The notes under the pieces are model-generated. The model was not told the DNA's origin. It made no database searches and was given only the letters and a program-made list of their open reading frames with translations. Source: Pseudomonas sp. P8_241 (GTDB lineage: Bacteria; Pseudomonadota; Gammaproteobacteria; Pseudomonadales; Pseudomonadaceae). From it: a stretch of DNA of 64,000 nt. The translations under genes and the position numbers were made by a program. The stretch spans positions 558,001-622,000 of the forward strand of contig NZ_CP125377.1 in NCBI RefSeq assembly GCF_034008315.1, in the 5' to 3' direction. Each line of letters opens with the position of its first letter. Position 1 is the stretch's first letter. Of this stretch, positions 17,891-40,822 are shown in pieces.

Positions 17891-20332
17891 TCAGAACAAA
17901 TCGATCGGCGCCGCTTCATCTGCCGGTAGCGGGCTGCCCGGCGCTGTGCCGTTGCTCAGTTCGTTTGCGGATGGCGGCGTGTCCTCGGCCTTGAACAGCT
18001 CGAAGTAGGCGCCTGGCGTACCCGGGCTGGCTGCGCGCCCGCTGATCGGATCGACCCGCAGACTGAGAAGGCCTTCCGGCTCCGCTTGCGTGTGTGGCGG
18101 CTTGTCCTTGAGGGCGGCTCCCATATAGTTCATCCAGATCGGCAGCGCGACTGTGCCACCGAACTCCTTGCGGCCCAGACTTTCAGGCTGGTCGAAGCCG
18201 GTCCAGACCGTGGTCACGTAGTCGGCGTTGTAGCCGGAGAACCAGGCGTCCTTGGATTCGTTGGTCGTACCCGTTTTACCAGCGATGTCGGAGCGACCCA
18301 GTGCCAGGGCGCGACGCCCGGTGCCGAGCTTGATGACGTCCTGGAGCATGCTGTTGAGGATGTAGGTCGTGCGCCCATCGACAATGCGTTCGGCCACCGC
18401 CGGTGCTTGTGGTGCGGGTGTCGCGCCAGGGACTTCGCCCGGGGTCGCATTGACTGTGAAGGCTTCAGCGGAAGGTGCGGCAATGCCGTCGCTGGCGACG
18501 CCACCCTGAGGCACGCTCGCCGGGTTGGCGACGAACAGGGTGTCGCCGTTGCGGCTTTCGATCTTGTCGATGATGTATGGAGTGATTTTGTAACCGCCGT
18601 TGGCGAAGGTGCTCCAGCCAGTGGCGATTTCCATCGGCGTCAGGGTCGCAGTGCCCAGGGCCAGGGACAGGTTGGGCGGCAGATCCTGCTTGTTGAAGCC
18701 GAAGCGGGTGATGTAGTCGATGGTCTTGCCGACGCCCATTGCTTGCAGCAAGCGGATCGACACCAGATTGCGCGACTTGTAGAGCGCTTCACGCAGACGG
18801 ATCGGGCCAAGGAACGTGTTGGTGTCGTTTTTCGGGCGCCAGACCTTGTCCATGTACTCGTCGACGAACACGATCGGTGCGTCGTTGACCAGGCTGGAGG
18901 CGGTGTAGCCACTATCCAGTGCTGCGCTGTAGACAAACGGCTTGAAGCTCGATCCGGGCTGGCGCTTGGCCTGAAGGGCGCGGTTGTAGTTGCTCTGCTC
19001 GAAGGCGAAGCCACCGACCAGCGAGCGGATTGCACCGTTCTGCGGGTCAAGGGAAACCAGTGCACCCTGGGCTTGAGGAATCTGGCTGAACTTCAGTGAG
19101 TTGTCCGGTTGGCGCTGTACACGAATCAGGTCGCCGACCTGTGCCACGTCCGAAGGCTGCTTCGGATTTGGCCCCATGCTGTTGGTGTTCAGGAACGGAC
19201 GAGCCCATTTCATGGTGTCCCAGCTGACATGCTCCTGGCCGGTGCGGGTCAGGACTTGCAAACCGTTCTTGTCGACCTGGGTAACGATGGCTGGCTCGAG
19301 GCTGCTGATGGTGCGCTGCTTGGTCAACTCCGTTACCCATGCCTCGCGGGTCTTGCCCGGCAAACGCGATTCCGGACCGCGATAGCCATGGCGCTGGTCG
19401 TAGGTCATCAAGCCTTCGTGGAGGGCAGTATTGGCCAGTTCCTGAAGATTGCTTGGCACTGTGGTGGTGACACGAAATCCTTCAGTGTATGCATCGCTGC
19501 CGTAGCGACCGACCATTTCGGCACGGGCCATTTCAGCGATGTATGGCGCGTTAACCTCTGGTGTCGGCACGTGATAACTGGCGTTGAGTGGCTCGTTGAC
19601 CGCAGTGGTGTAGTCGGCCTCGGTAATTTTGCCGAGCTTGTACATGCGTCCCAGGATCCAGTCGCGACGCTCCTTGCTGCGTGCGGGGTTGGCCAGCGGG
19701 TTGAAGCGTGACGGTGCCTTGGGCAAGCCGGCGATCATCGCCATCTGTGCCAGGCTGACGTCGCGGATCGACTTGCCGTAATAGACCTGCGCCGCTGCCT
19801 CGATGCCATAAGCGCGGTTACCCAGATAGATCTTGTTGACGTACAGCTCAAGGATCTCGTCCTTGGTGAGCTGTCGTTCGATCTGCAGTGCCAGAAGGAT
19901 TTCAGTGGTTTTGCGCGAAAAGCTGCGTTCGCTGGTCAGGAAGAAGTTCTTCGCGACCTGCATGGTGATGGTGCTGCCGCCGGACTGAATGTGCCCGCTT
20001 TTGACCAGTTGCGTGGCGGCACGCATCAGGCTGCTCGGATCGACGCCGTAGTGGTTGGCGAAGTTATCGTCTTCAGCACTTAGTAACGCATTAATGAAAT
20101 TGGGGGGAATGTCGGCGAAACGGATCGGAGTACGGCGCATTTCGCCAAACTCTGCAATCAACTTGTTGTCGCTGCTGTAAACCCGCAAGGGAATCTGCAA
20201 CTGGATGCTTCGCAGGGCCTCAACGGACGGTAATCCGGGGCTAAGGTAGAGGTACGCCCCGCTCAGACCCAGAAGGAGTCCGCAGAAAACCGCGACGATG
20301 GACCAACCGAAAAACTTCAGCAGACGAATCAA
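17891..20332 (-). CDS. ponA: Penicillin-binding protein 1A
   Basis: This bifunctional class A PBP polymerises and cross-links peptidoglycan in the periplasm. The 813-residue protein starts at a TTG (20332) and has one N-terminal membrane anchor (LLKFFGWSIVAVFCGLLLGLSGAYLYL). The glycosyltransferase domain has EDDNFANHYGVD with its catalytic Glu near residue 87. An OB-like insert follows, then the transpeptidase domain with SSFK, SRN and KTGTT motifs. It diverges from pilM, the arrangement known in P. aeruginosa. No ATG lies close upstream, so the TTG start is likely but the ribosome-binding site is weak. Confidence 0.95.
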   Translation of the reverse strand: MIRLLKFFGWSIVAVFCGLLLGLSGAYLYLSPGLPSVEALRSIQLQIPLRVYSSDNKLIAEFGEMRRTPIRFADIPPNFINALLSAEDDNFANHYGVDPSSLMRAATQLVKSGHIQSGGSTITMQVAKNFFLTSERSFSRKTTEILLALQIERQLTKDEILELYVNKIYLGNRAYGIEAAAQVYYGKSIRDVSLAQMAMIAGLPKAPSRFNPLANPARSKERRDWILGRMYKLGKITEADYTTAVNEPLNASYHVPTPEVNAPYIAEMARAEMVGRYGSDAYTEGFRVTTTVPSNLQELANTALHEGLMTYDQRHGYRGPESRLPGKTREAWVTELTKQRTISSLEPAIVTQVDKNGLQVLTRTGQEHVSWDTMKWARPFLNTNSMGPNPKQPSDVAQVGDLIRVQRQPDNSLKFSQIPQAQGALVSLDPQNGAIRSLVGGFAFEQSNYNRALQAKRQPGSSFKPFVYSAALDSGYTASSLVNDAPIVFVDEYMDKVWRPKNDTNTFLGPIRLREALYKSRNLVSIRLLQAMGVGKTIDYITRFGFNKQDLPPNLSLALGTATLTPMEIATGWSTFANGGYKITPYIIDKIESRNGDTLFVANPASVPQGGVASDGIAAPSAEAFTVNATPGEVPGATPAPQAPAVAERIVDGRTTYILNSMLQDVIKLGTGRRALALGRSDIAGKTGTTNESKDAWFSGYNADYVTTVWTGFDQPESLGRKEFGGTVALPIWMNYMGAALKDKPPHTQAEPEGLLSLRVDPISGRAASPGTPGAYFELFKAEDTPPSANELSNGTAPGSPLPADEAAPIDLF

Positions 20333-20517
20333 GGCTTTGGGATATCCAGGGCAAAAAATGAATTAGGCATCAGGGTCAGGCAAAAGGAAACGACCCGCGC
20401 TTGAGCAAATGCGGAAAAAAACGCTGGGCATTATAAGCATTTTTCTGCTGGGTAGCGTCATTTGCGCTGCTGTCAAGACGGGCGGGTTGAACGCAATGGA
20501 CATTGCACAGTCCGTAA

Positions 20518-32100: not shown

Positions 32101-33552
32101 CTCGTAGCAGAAGCGGGCGTCGGCACCATCGCCGCCGGTGTGGCCAAAGCCTATGCAGACTTGATCACCATCTCCGGCTACGACGGCGGCACCGGCGCAT
32201 CGCCGCTGACCTCGATCAAATACGCGGGCGCTCCGTGGGAGCTCGGCCTGGCCGAAACCCACCAGACCCTGCGCGGTAACGACCTGCGCGGCAAAGTGCG
32301 GGTTCAAACCGACGGCGGCCTGAAAACCGGCCTCGACGTGATCAAGGCTGCGATCCTCGGCGCAGAAAGCTTCGGCTTCGGCACCGCGCCAATGATCGCG
32401 CTGGGCTGCAAATACCTGCGTATCTGCCACCTGAACAACTGCGCCACCGGCGTCGCGACTCAGAACGAGAAACTGCGCAAGGATCACTACATCGGGACCG
32501 TCGACATGGTGGTGAATTTCTTCACCTACGTCGCCGAAGAAACCCGTGAGTGGCTGGCCAAGCTGGGCGTGCGCTCCCTCGAAGAGCTGATCGGTCGTAC
32601 CGATCTGCTGGAAGTCCTCGAAGGCCAGACCGCCAAGCAGCAACACCTGGACCTGACCCCGTTGTTGGGCAGCGACCACGTGCCGGCGGACAAGCCGCAG
32701 TTCTGTGGCGTTGAACGCAACCCGCCGTTCGACAAAGGCCTGCTGGCCGAGAAAATGGTCGACATGGCCACCTCGGCGATCAACGACCTGAGCGGCGCTG
32801 AATTCGCCCTGGATATCTGCAACTGCGACCGTTCCATCGGCGCACGGATCTCCGGCGAAATCGCGCGCAAGCACGGCAACCAGGGCATGGCCCACGCGCC
32901 GGTCACGTTCCGCTTCAAGGGCACTGCCGGTCAGAGCTTCGGCGTGTGGAACGCTGGTGGCCTGAACATGTACCTGGAAGGCGATGCCAACGACTATGTC
33001 GGCAAGGGCATGACCGGCGGCAAGCTTGTCATCGTTCCGCCGAAGGGCAGCGTCTACCGCACCCAGGACAGTGCCATCATCGGTAACACCTGCCTGTACG
33101 GCGCCACCGGCGGCAAACTGTTCGCTGCCGGCACCGCGGGCGAGCGTTTTGCCGTGCGTAACTCCGGTGCCCACACCGTTGTGGAAGGCACTGGCGATCA
33201 CTGCTGCGAGTACATGACCGGTGGTTTCGTCTGCGTATTGGGCAAGACCGGATACAACTTCGGCTCTGGCATGACCGGCGGTTTCGCCTACGTGCTCGAC
33301 CAGGACAACACCTTCGTTGACCGGGTCAACCACGAACTGGTGGAAATCCAGCGGATCAGCGGCGAGGCGATGGAAGCCTACCGCAGCCATTTGCAACGCG
33401 TGCTGAACGAGTACGTCGAGGAAACGGACAGCGAGTGGGGTCGTGAACTCGCCGAGAACCTCGATGATTACGTGCGCCGTTTCTGGTTGGTCAAGCCCAA
33501 GGCTGCCAGCTTGAAATCGTTGCTTTCCAGCACCCGTGCCAACCCGCAGTGA
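29107..33552 (+). CDS. gltB: Glutamate synthase (NADPH) large subunit
   Basis: GltB makes glutamate from glutamine and 2-oxoglutarate, with electrons from GltD. ATG 29107 is chosen over the GTG at 29101 because it is nine bases from GGTGAG. The 1481-residue protein has a 14-residue propeptide before Cys15 (NCGFGLIAH), the N-terminal nucleophile of the glutaminase domain. The FMN/2-oxoglutarate synthase domain follows; [12 protein letters not shown] carries the 3Fe-4S Cys set. The C-terminal beta-helix GXGXG domain is rich in Gly ([22 protein letters not shown]). gltD follows after 32 bases. Confidence 0.97.
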
Positions 33553-38838: not shown

Positions 38839-39015
38839 TCCGCAAGTACTCCCAAAAGACCCTCTGCATGCCAACCTGGCGGGAAACTTCACCCCCTCCT
38901 GTGGGACATTTCCGAAATCCTTCCCAAAAGCTACAGCGTCTTGCGGCGCTGCCTACAGCTACTCCAGAATCCGCCGGCTTGTGCGCTTTTGGGGCTGTCG
39001 GTAGCTTGATTCGCG

Positions 39016-39180
39016 TCACTGATTGTCAGTGATCGGGTTTAGCAGCCTGTATCGAAGTAAAGCGCATTTGCGCTCCTGATAGGCAGGTATGTCCATACCT
39101 GCCCTTGACGGTAGCTGTGCGCAGGGCGCCTTCGGGCGCGCCGGTTTCGCTTCGTCCGGTCTGCTAACCTGCGTACAGCT
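39016..39180 (+). ncRNA. Candidate structured leader RNA of the DUF6124 gene
   Basis: Five dyads are packed in 165 bases. TCACTGA/TCAGTGA is at 39016-39032 and AGCGCA/TGCGCT at 39061-39074. GGCAGGTATG/CATACCTGCC, a perfect 10-bp stem, is at 39082-39103. A C(UUCG)G-capped stem is at 39126-39139 and a CCGG/CCGG dyad at 39141-39159. A 12-bp stem with one G-U pair joins 39113-39124 to 39169-39180 and encloses the last two. The RNA ends about 58 bases before the downstream ATG. Family, promoter and function are unknown to me. Confidence 0.5.
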
Positions 39181-39237
39181 GCCACCCTATTGATCAGTAG
39201 CAATTTGGTGTGGCCGCCATTTTCAGGACGCTGAATC

Positions 39238-39501
39238 ATGACCCATGCGCCAAACCCACCGGATACCGATCCGGACGTGCCACACCAACCCAGCCCCCTA
39301 TTCCTCATCGCCCCCGACGTCGACAACCACACCCTGCTGGAATACGCCTGCGTGTCGCTAGCCTCGGCAAACGTCATGGCAAGTGACTTCGCCAGAGACC
39401 TGAAGGGCTCACAGGGCCACACACTGCTGGGCATCCAGCAGTCGATCATGCTGGGGGAGCTGGCAGTGAATCGGGTGCTGGATAATCTTGATCCGCCCTG
39501 A
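39238..39501 (+). CDS. Small DUF6124-type protein
   Basis: This 87-residue protein starts THAPNPPDTDPDVPHQPSP and has a central helix-rich segment, NHTLLEYACVSLASANVMASDFA, ending LGELAVNRVLDNLDPP. I recognise this pattern from a family of small proteins of unknown function in fluorescent pseudomonads (DUF6124), usually a little longer and present in several copies. There is no signal peptide or membrane segment. AGGA at 39226-39229 serves the ATG. It follows the structured stretch described at 39016-39180. Function unknown. Confidence 0.75.
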   Translation: MTHAPNPPDTDPDVPHQPSPLFLIAPDVDNHTLLEYACVSLASANVMASDFARDLKGSQGHTLLGIQQSIMLGELAVNRVLDNLDPP

Positions 39502-39519
39502 TCACCGTACCGCAAAAAC

Positions 39520-39588
39520 AAAAGATCGCAGCCTTCGTCAGCTCCTACACCAATCACTGTAGGAGCTGCCGAAGGCTGCGATCTTTTG
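39520..39588. repeat. Inverted REP pair at the 3' end of the aryl polyene cluster
   Basis: AAAGATCGCAGCCTTCGTCAG faces TGTAGGAGCTGCCGAAGGCT across 10 bases, giving a long potential stem. It sits eight bases beyond the last ketosynthase stop and may serve as the 3' end structure of the operon. Confidence 0.85.
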
Positions 39589-39595
39589 GCTTAAA

Positions 39596-40822
39596 TTACG
39601 ACCAGCGCTTGAATATCAGCGAAGTATTCACCCCGCCAAACGCAAAATTATTGTTCATCACGTACTGGTTGCTCATCTGCCGAAACTCGCCGCGCAGGTA
39701 GTCGAGTTTGCCGCAGTGCGGGTCGACATTGTCGAGGTTGAAGGTGTGGGCGTAGAGGTCGCGGTTCATCATTTCGATGCTGAACCACGACTCCAGCGCA
39801 CCGCAGGCGCCGAGGGTGTGGCCGAGGAAGCTTTTCTGCGAGCTGATCGGCATGTGTTCGCCGAACAGGCTGCTGGTGGCCAGGGTTTCGGCGATGTCGC
39901 CCTGCTCGGTGGCAGTGCCGTGGCCGTTGACGTAGCCGATGTCGGAAGGTGCAAGTCCGGCATCTTCCAGGGCCAGTTCCATGGCCCGACGCATGGTGAT
40001 CTGTTCGGGGCGGGTGGTGTGCTGGCCGTCGGCGTTGCTGCCGAAACCAACGATCTCGGCATGGATGCGCGCGCCACGGGCCAAGGCGTGTTCCAGTTCT
40101 TCGAGCACCAGCATGCCGCCGCCTTCACCTATCACCAGGCCATCGCGTGCGGTGTCGTATGGGCGGGGGCTGCGTTGCGGGGTGTCGTTTTTCAGGCTGG
40201 TGGCGTAGAGCGCGTCGAAGACCATGGCCTCGGTCGGGCACAGCTCCTCGGCACCGCCGGCGAGCATCAGCGGCAAGCGGCCGAACTTGATCGCCTCGTA
40301 GGCATAGCCGATGCCCTGGCTGCCGCTGGTACAGGCGCTGGACGTCGGAATCAGGCGCCCGGTGAGGCCGAAGAAGATGCTGATGTTCGCCGCCGTGGTG
40401 TGCGGCATCATCCGCACATAGGAATTGGCGTTCAGCCCCTCGGCCACCGAGTTGAGCAGCATGTTGCCGAAGGCCTTGATCTCGTCGGTGCTGCCGGTGG
40501 AGGAGCCGCAGGCGACGCCCATGCGTCCGTCCTTGATTGATTCGTCACCCAATAATCCGGCGTCGGCCAGTGCCAGTTCCGACGCGCCAACGGCCAGCCG
40601 TGATACCCGGCCCATGCTGCGCAGTTGTTTACGGGTCCAGTGACTCGGGACCTTGAAGTCATCGATGGGGCCGGCCAGGCGTGTGTTGAGTTCGGTGAAG
40701 CGGTCCCACTCGTCCATCCGGCGGATACCGCTGCGGTTGGCCACGAAGTTGCCGGCGATGGTCTCCCAATCGCTGCCCAGTGAGGTGATGCCGGCCATGC
40801 CGGTGACGACGACGCGCTTCAT
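39596..40822 (-). CDS. Beta-ketoacyl-ACP synthase of the aryl polyene cluster (downstream copy)
   Basis: This FabF-like ketosynthase would condense acyl chains with malonyl-ACP. The 408-residue protein from ATG 40822 has the active-site Cys164 (SSACTSGS) and the His motifs NGHGTATEQGD and KSFLGHTLGACGA. The ATG overlaps the ketoreductase stop (TGATG); a GTG two codons earlier is possible. It ends the 19-gene operon. It corresponds in position to the second ketosynthase (ApeR) of described aryl polyene clusters. Confidence 0.92.
   Translation of the reverse strand: MKRVVVTGMAGITSLGSDWETIAGNFVANRSGIRRMDEWDRFTELNTRLAGPIDDFKVPSHWTRKQLRSMGRVSRLAVGASELALADAGLLGDESIKDGRMGVACGSSTGSTDEIKAFGNMLLNSVAEGLNANSYVRMMPHTTAANISIFFGLTGRLIPTSSACTSGSQGIGYAYEAIKFGRLPLMLAGGAEELCPTEAMVFDALYATSLKNDTPQRSPRPYDTARDGLVIGEGGGMLVLEELEHALARGARIHAEIVGFGSNADGQHTTRPEQITMRRAMELALEDAGLAPSDIGYVNGHGTATEQGDIAETLATSSLFGEHMPISSQKSFLGHTLGACGALESWFSIEMMNRDLYAHTFNLDNVDPHCGKLDYLRGEFRQMSNQYVMNNNFAFGGVNTSLIFKRWS

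Follow-up and report, generated by a model that had tools for sequence, protein, structure and literature searches.

A C4 antisense RNA precedes a DUF6124 gene on a Pseudomonas chromosome and may act mainly on its own leader

The window, a stretch of 64,000 nucleotides from the chromosome of Pseudomonas sp. P8_241, carries on its plus strand a C4 antisense RNA (39104–39189) and, starting 48 bases after the end of that match, a gene for a DUF6124 protein of 87 amino acids (39238–39501, plus strand). This chromosomal module is flanked by a LysR gene on one side and a ketoacyl-synthase gene on the other. The RNA scored 79.4 bits with the Rfam model RF01695, well above the curated cut-off of 45 bits, and its identification as C4 is near certain. 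The initial annotation, based on the letters alone, had described a multi-hairpin element at 39016–39180 without being able to assign it to any known RNA family; this statement is superseded. Its suggestion of a structured 5' leader or a small RNA was apt, as C4 is a small RNA cut from the leader of its own gene. Elsewhere in the window, at 20060–20353 of the plus strand, Rfam also matched asponA (RF02812; 116.2 bits, cut-off 113).

The 165 nucleotides at 39016–39180 folded with −76.3 kcal/mol versus a mean of −57.7 kcal/mol for shuffled sequences (z −5.02), and none of 200 shuffles was as stable. All dyads previously listed were found at their coordinates in both sequence and fold. In the Rfam alignment stem P1 occupies 17 columns (39109–39125/39168–39184, plus strand), the outermost of which, C–A, is a non-standard pair; the 12-bp stem at 39113–39124/39169–39180 is its core. 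The stem capped by C(UUCG)G at 39126–39139 is P2. The P3 hairpin exposes the hypervariable loop b' (39145–39155), and the second loop, a' (39161–39167), co-varies with its targets. The expected processed form begins at GG, covers 77 nt (about 39110–39186) and ends as the C4 RNA of phage P1 does. Co-variation of the stems among related copies, named in the initial annotation as a check, was found in a set of 40 C4 sequences (36 distinct) chosen from the collected loci and the window: 97.1% of cells were paired in comparison with 31–40% in slid controls, and both sides had changed in 11 of 27 pairs. The three-stem fold is kept by compensatory change.

Upstream of C4 the plus strand carries a putative promoter at 38979–39007 (TTGTGC at 38979–38984, a 17-nt spacer and TAGCTT at 39002–39007), from which transcription would be expected to start near 39013–39015. 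A strict consensus scan of 38880–39620 returned no promoter. The looser pattern TTGnnn-N16..18-TAnnnT, with whose second half TAGCTT agrees, was present in 97 of 121 C4 loci, compared with 7 of 121 when the letters of each locus were shuffled once. The leader proper opens with a hairpin of TCACTGA and TCAGTGA (39016–39032), which the alignment to the Rfam family c4-a1b1 (RF03163) makes the first hairpin of the a1b1 target. That alignment, at 39005–39053, reached 28.1 bits (E 5.5e-5), below the cut-off of 46.7; the window copy resembles c4-a1b1 in its place upstream of C4 and in an a1 loop complementary to a', and differs from it by this score. The a1 hairpin follows at 39034–39049, and its loop TTTAGCAG (39038–39045) pairs with loop a', as co-variation over 121 loci demonstrated. 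The long-range pairing proposed earlier between GGTTTAGCAG at 39036–39045 and CTGCTAACC at 39161–39169, crossing or competing with the 12-bp stem, is real: its columns co-vary between copies, and it is the pairing of loop a' with the upstream target a1.

Next to a1 lies b1 (39050–39061, plus strand; core CGAAGT at 39053–39058), the hypervariable upstream target of loop b', recognized by self-complementarity in 22 leaders and by energy tests. It is adjoined by a short hairpin, AGCGC/GCGCT (39061–39074), visible in sequence and fold and with an identity of 0.84 in the 22 leaders. The last hairpin before C4 (39082–39103) had been read as a perfect 10-bp arm pair; the hairpin is present, but the fold contains nine pairs because a tenth would leave a loop of 2 nt. 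No U-run follows this hairpin, nor was one found anywhere between b1 and C4, so the window has no terminator hairpin with a U-run and a competing arm over the antisense site, the arrangement expected of an attenuator.

On the other side of C4, a2 (39194–39200, plus strand), the downstream target of a', comprises seven positions with five standard pairs, one wobble and one mismatch; all six pairs assessed between a2 and a' form when the wobble is included. The ribosome-binding site of the DUF6124 gene (39220–39237, with AGGA at 39225–39228) occupies the position expected for b2 and is not complementary to b' in the window copy. In most paralogues the loops are complementary to an a2b2 target at the ribosome site of the gene behind C4, whereas in the window a2 is largely kept and the b2 match is lost. 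Duplex energies were compared within the genome, which contains five C4 copies. The window's b' bound its own downstream region with −4.3 kcal/mol, more weakly than it bound the downstream region of any of the other four copies; across 121 loci this energy was at or above −6 in just four, the window among them. Loop a' found its best partner among the five upstream regions in its own a1 (−17.6). The duplex of b' with b1 amounted to six pairs and −7.2 kcal/mol, and three of the four other upstream regions paired better with this b', so the case for b'–b1 complementarity in the window is made by the group of related loci. In some orthologues (L161 and, as judged by eye, L190, L192, L193, L194 and L203) a2 is missing as well.

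The protein encoded behind C4 matched DUF6124 (PF19619) with 74.8 bits against a cut-off of 27. Its dN/dS ratio against 11 relatives ranged from 0.03 to 0.22, which indicates that it is under purifying selection. An AlphaFold2 model predicted a two-helix hairpin (mean pLDDT 82), and a fold search with this model returned only generic helical matches and none at E <= 0.001. Searches of NCBIfam, PHROGs and PADLOC gave no match at E 0.01. Homology of DUF6124 or DUF3077 to the Icd protein of phage P1 was considered and rejected, no similarity being detectable. Between DUF6124 and DUF3077 the profile comparison found a weak relation that was not adopted (E 0.0069 and 0.0022; the probabilities, 5.6 and 12.8, were low), although some genomic frames do match both Pfam models, e.g., one near 32140 of G021:C156. 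The DUF6124 gene stands alone and is followed by the convergent ketoacyl-synthase gene, i.e., the icd and ant genes of a P1-type immI operon are not found downstream. Behind the DUF6124 gene lies a long palindrome (39517–39593); it is probably either a repetitive palindromic element or the common terminator of this gene and the convergent one, and a sub-threshold match of this palindrome to MIR7510 was rejected as a microRNA.

The closest known counterpart is the immI region (c4-icd-ant) of phages P1 and P7, whose C4 RNA has the same fold and the same 77-nt form with identical ends (GGT...TGCCACC). The P1 record AF234172 lists a promoter, a1, b1, C4 of 77 nt, a2, b2, icd and ant1, and the window leader follows the same order. 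The distance from the C4 end to the ATG is 52 nt in the window and 51 in P1, that from a1 to C4 is 72 versus 88 nt, and that from C4 to a2 is 8 versus 4 nt. According to descriptions of the phage system, RNase P cuts C4 out of the transcript and loop b' covers the ribosome sites (PMC5320573), and P1 C4 is a trans-acting repressor (PMC8546580; for further background on P1 see also PMC8201110 and PMC12197685). AF234172 gives a2 and b2 as the sites through which translation of icd and ant is repressed, and terms a1 and b1 "putative". Our duplex method, applied to P1 as a control, recovered the annotated b1, b2 and a1, and missed a2. Unlike the phage locus, the window copy is chromosomal, sits beside core genes, has DUF6124 instead of icd-ant behind it and has lost b2; also unlike P1, Pseudomonas genomes carry many paralogues that differ in their loop letters.

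C4 and c4-a1b1 have been listed for Proteobacteria and phages (PMC2864571). Our search of 57 genomes, with filters that may lose weak matches, detected C4 in 36, namely in 32 of 36 genomes of the genus (0–42 copies each) and in 4 of 21 outside it. Among the 36 genomes of the genus the copy number correlated with the combined count of DUF6124 and DUF3077 matches (Spearman 0.91, uncorrected for genome size). From four genomes 125 C4 copies were extracted and the genes up to 850 nt downstream were scored with local profiles, each grown from one seed. As the initial annotation had proposed to check, the copies do sit before other genes of this type: DUF6124 followed 88 of them, DUF3077 11, a third small family 17 and Bro-N 4, in total 120 of 125; one of the remaining copies had another gene behind it and four had none of these. 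Two of the 17 genes of the third family also matched DUF6124 or DUF3077. Pfam, run on a few of these genes, confirmed DUF6124 for the window, DUF3077 for a frame at L001 and Bro-N in three of four cases, and returned nothing for the truncated frame at L003 and for the third family. Conversely, C4 lay upstream in 77 of 80 named Pseudomonas DUF6124 loci according to our own nucleotide profile; being the best 80 of 212, these loci are close to the window protein. Rfam, applied to 20 sampled DUF6124 loci, detected C4 in 19, c4-a1b1 above its cut-off in 11 and, beside C4, isrK above its own in 3.

Several observations on individual copies were made during this survey. The third small family (L002:1643-1915 and relatives) starts with MNRYMPL or similar, and the member tested had no match in Pfam, NCBIfam or PHROG; its profile values against DUF6124 and DUF3077 (0.16 and 0.27) led us to reject a relation to either. 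L035, L065 and L080 encode short Bro-N proteins of 170–175 aa directly behind a chromosomal C4, possibly trimmed antirepressors. Tandem arrays occur as well, with three C4 copies about 850 bp apart at L058 and four at L082. At L038, L039, L040 and L076 the DUF3077 gene starts 120–160 nt past C4, and inspection by eye revealed a short frame at the C4-controlled ribosome site before it, an arrangement that would resemble, by analogy, the ant-icd coupling of P1.

The pairing between the loops of C4 and their targets was then assessed over 121 loci, four of the 125 copies being dropped for an unparsable loop or a partial match. The counts that follow are not independent events because the copies are related. 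Among the column pairs that co-vary between C4 and the downstream region, the six strongest form one antidiagonal, and the six strongest between C4 and the upstream region form another; these columns are paired in 0.88–0.99 of loci versus 0.32–0.75 expected. The antidiagonals are loop a' with a2 and loop a' with a1; the complete set of six assessed pairs is present in 102 of 121 loci for a'–a2 and in 105 of 121 for a'–a1. In energy tests against targets of the same genome, b' had its strictly best site in its own downstream region in 71 of 121 loci, where about 4 were expected, and in its own upstream region in 26 of 121. Despite the clear co-variation, a' alone discriminated poorly by energy downstream, ranking its own site strictly first in 6 of 121 loci. 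A test anchored on the anti-SD, usable in 39 of the 121 loci, gave 0.90 self pairing versus 0.39 non-self pairing. Within three genomes nearly every b' loop was distinct (39 of 40, 32 of 34 and 42 of 42). No evidence of active avoidance of cross-talk was obtained, as non-self energies were alike for targets of the same and of other genomes.

The behavior of the window's own lineage was analyzed in syntenic loci. The locus, recognized by an adjoining LysR and/or ketoacyl-synthase gene, was found in 12 of 21 fetched relatives. In the resulting 13 loci, window included, b' paired with its own b1 at −9.55 versus −5.78 kcal/mol for non-self partners (none of 10,000 permutations as low; strictly best in three), whereas the downstream energies were hardly different (−7.93 versus −7.54, P 0.18). 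A larger set gave a clade of 17 distinct syntenic loci that share the window's kind of ribosome site. Upstream, b' preferred its own target (−9.40 versus −6.84; none of 20,000 permutations), as did a' (P 0.0001); downstream, the self-preference of b' was gone (−6.06 versus −6.54, P 0.96). The loss of b2 in this clade is partly circular, because the clade was chosen by its ribosome-site sequence; the upstream retention was not built in. In the other 12 syntenic loci the self-preference of b' held both upstream and downstream, and all 31 syntenic loci taken together still displayed it downstream. The energy test of a' with downstream regions detected no self-preference in any syntenic group, even with a2 intact; it cannot judge a2, because it gives no preference where a2 is intact and it also misses the annotated a2 of P1. 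When 22 of the 31 leaders were aligned, all 10-column stretches of highest variability lay within b1 and loop b' (segment identities 0.46 and 0.47), while the other nine measured segments ranged from 0.84 to 0.98. The two fast-changing segments nevertheless stay complementary, with a mean longest run of 7.8 versus 5.35 (none of 20,000 permutations).

Altogether, these results lead us to favor, with moderate confidence, the view that the locus is a phage C4 module, since domesticated, and that its RNA today acts chiefly on the a1b1 target in its own leader. One transcript starting at about 39014 would contain a1b1, C4 and then the DUF6124 gene, and by analogy with P1 RNase P would free the 77-nt RNA. 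In most copies C4 can base-pair with a2b2, thereby masking the ribosome site of the gene behind it. In the window clade b2 no longer matches while a1b1 stays in step with C4, so that C4 most likely acts there on a1b1 in the nascent leaders of its own locus, and the pairing would hold down synthesis of the leader and of DUF6124 as a feedback or attenuation device. The a1b1 alignment below the Rfam cut-off, the weak b'–b1 duplex of the window and an a2 that still forms all assessed pairs speak against action on the leader.

The consequence of pairing at a1b1 may be illustrated by other copies. A run of at least six T just before C4 was present in 8 of 11 DUF3077 copies versus 4 of 86 DUF6124 copies. 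Among 131 loci (the 121 and ten from other genomes) 24 had the T-run, 18 a stem before it and 11 a competing upstream arm, which the b' site overlapped in all 11, these being counts from a loose filter without a computed chance rate. The 11 attenuator-type loci (six DUF3077, one DUF6124 and four from other genomes) include L039, L114, L116, L006 and L007. This arrangement suggests that in DUF3077-type copies the binding of C4 to a1b1 releases a terminator and so switches off the leader, much like the mode of action given for the CI RNA of phage P4, a processed leader RNA described as pairing with one upstream and one downstream site (seqA/seqC) and thereby terminating transcription (PMC4825925); the analogy is drawn from that description. 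Such a form is unavailable in the window because no U-run follows b1, and the outcome there may be cleavage, a Rho-dependent stop or a switch in cis. The window differs also from IsrK (RF01394) of the Salmonella prophage Gifsy-1 (isrK-orf45-anrP), described as a terminated leader RNA before a small ORF and an antirepressor gene (PMC4825925): it scored 18.6 bits against a cut-off of 50 and has neither a U-run terminator nor an antirepressor gene.

The switch in cis just mentioned, to which the pseudoknot or switch of the initial annotation amounts, is the strongest competitor, although we regard it as rather unlikely. Here a1–a' and b1–b' would pair within one RNA, compete with C4 folding and so set both the release of C4 and read-through of the leader. 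The co-variation of a1–a' and b1–b' fits cis and trans pairing alike, and the partners lie about 100 nt apart on one transcript; yet in both the minimum-energy structure and the centroid a1b1 and C4 each form local folds, and the C4 of P1 is the trans-acting repressor described above. Slightly less probable is that C4 goes on repressing DUF6124 translation in the manner of P1, using a2 together with a b2 that is displaced or weakened, and that the mismatch is tolerated. The pairs retained in the window's a2 are compatible with this, and at L169, L171, L187 and L188 nine base pairs form over the start codon (−10.1 kcal/mol), but the window's b' is among the poorest of the 121 loci at its downstream site, prefers every other downstream region of its genome, and belongs to a derived clade without downstream self-preference in which some members have no a2.

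Several loci bear on where the module came from. Another Pseudomonas genome (G014) reproduces the c4-icd-ant layout of P1: behind C4 comes a DUF3077-like ORF (20.4 bits, cut-off 21), and a Bro-N antirepressor frame (88.5 bits) overlaps this ORF. In a relative from another family (G050) C4 stands directly before a Bro-N gene. The Pseudomonas phage record EU982300 contains a DUF6124 gene (108.6 bits) with an adjoining repressor gene, and its upstream DNA is 77% identical to the window leader and C4, a likeness at the level of nucleotide identity. These Bro-N layouts and the phage-borne DUF6124 with C4-like DNA point to a phage origin of the C4–DUF6124 module followed by domestication.

The same loci could be taken to mean that the domesticated C4 confers immunity against phages with C4-controlled antirepressor operons, DUF6124 being a bystander or helper; immunity is also among the roles proposed for the C4-like sRNAs of Acinetobacter baumannii (PMC5320573). 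We consider this improbable, as immunity by itself would not require the observed fit of the loops to their own targets, and DUF6124 itself is conserved. The A. baumannii group 1 sRNAs form several chromosomal copies with variable loops, and RNA-seq is reported to indicate processing at a GGW motif; as described there, their targets may be incoming phage or host transcripts (PMC5320573), while in Pseudomonas nearly every examined copy lies before a small gene and most have a matched a1 and a2. That the window copy is a decaying remnant without function is very improbable: although its b2 is lost and three further C4 loci of this genome look broken (where the gene should start, L001 carries an early stop; the DUF6124 frame of L003 is truncated; no family gene lies behind C4 at L005), the C4 RNA, a1 and the protein are conserved and b1–b' stays matched across species.

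A link between C4 and DUF6124 was not found in the titles and abstract openings that made up the literature searched; it may be in print elsewhere, as subscription journals were mostly outside this scope. Acting on the leader, C4 would fit a wider picture, which we offer tentatively. Fluorescent pseudomonads would have amplified a phage immunity switch into C4 modules numbering in the tens, every one with its own address code and linked to a single small protein of the DUF6124/DUF3077 kind, and the window lineage would have been rewired from the ribosome site to its own a1b1, with a recognition sequence that changes fast and yet remains self-matched. If true, this lineage would amount to a natural experiment in which a1b1, a "putative" site according to the P1 record, proves to work as a target by itself; a clade in which one C4 target match is lost while the upstream one co-evolves makes the role of a1b1 directly testable. 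The finding connects DUF6124 and DUF3077, two abundant families of genes without known function whose names are nearly absent from the literature searched, to a known regulator. With up to 42 copies in one genome, nearly all with loop letters of their own, these bacteria offer a ready library for the specificity of antisense RNAs.
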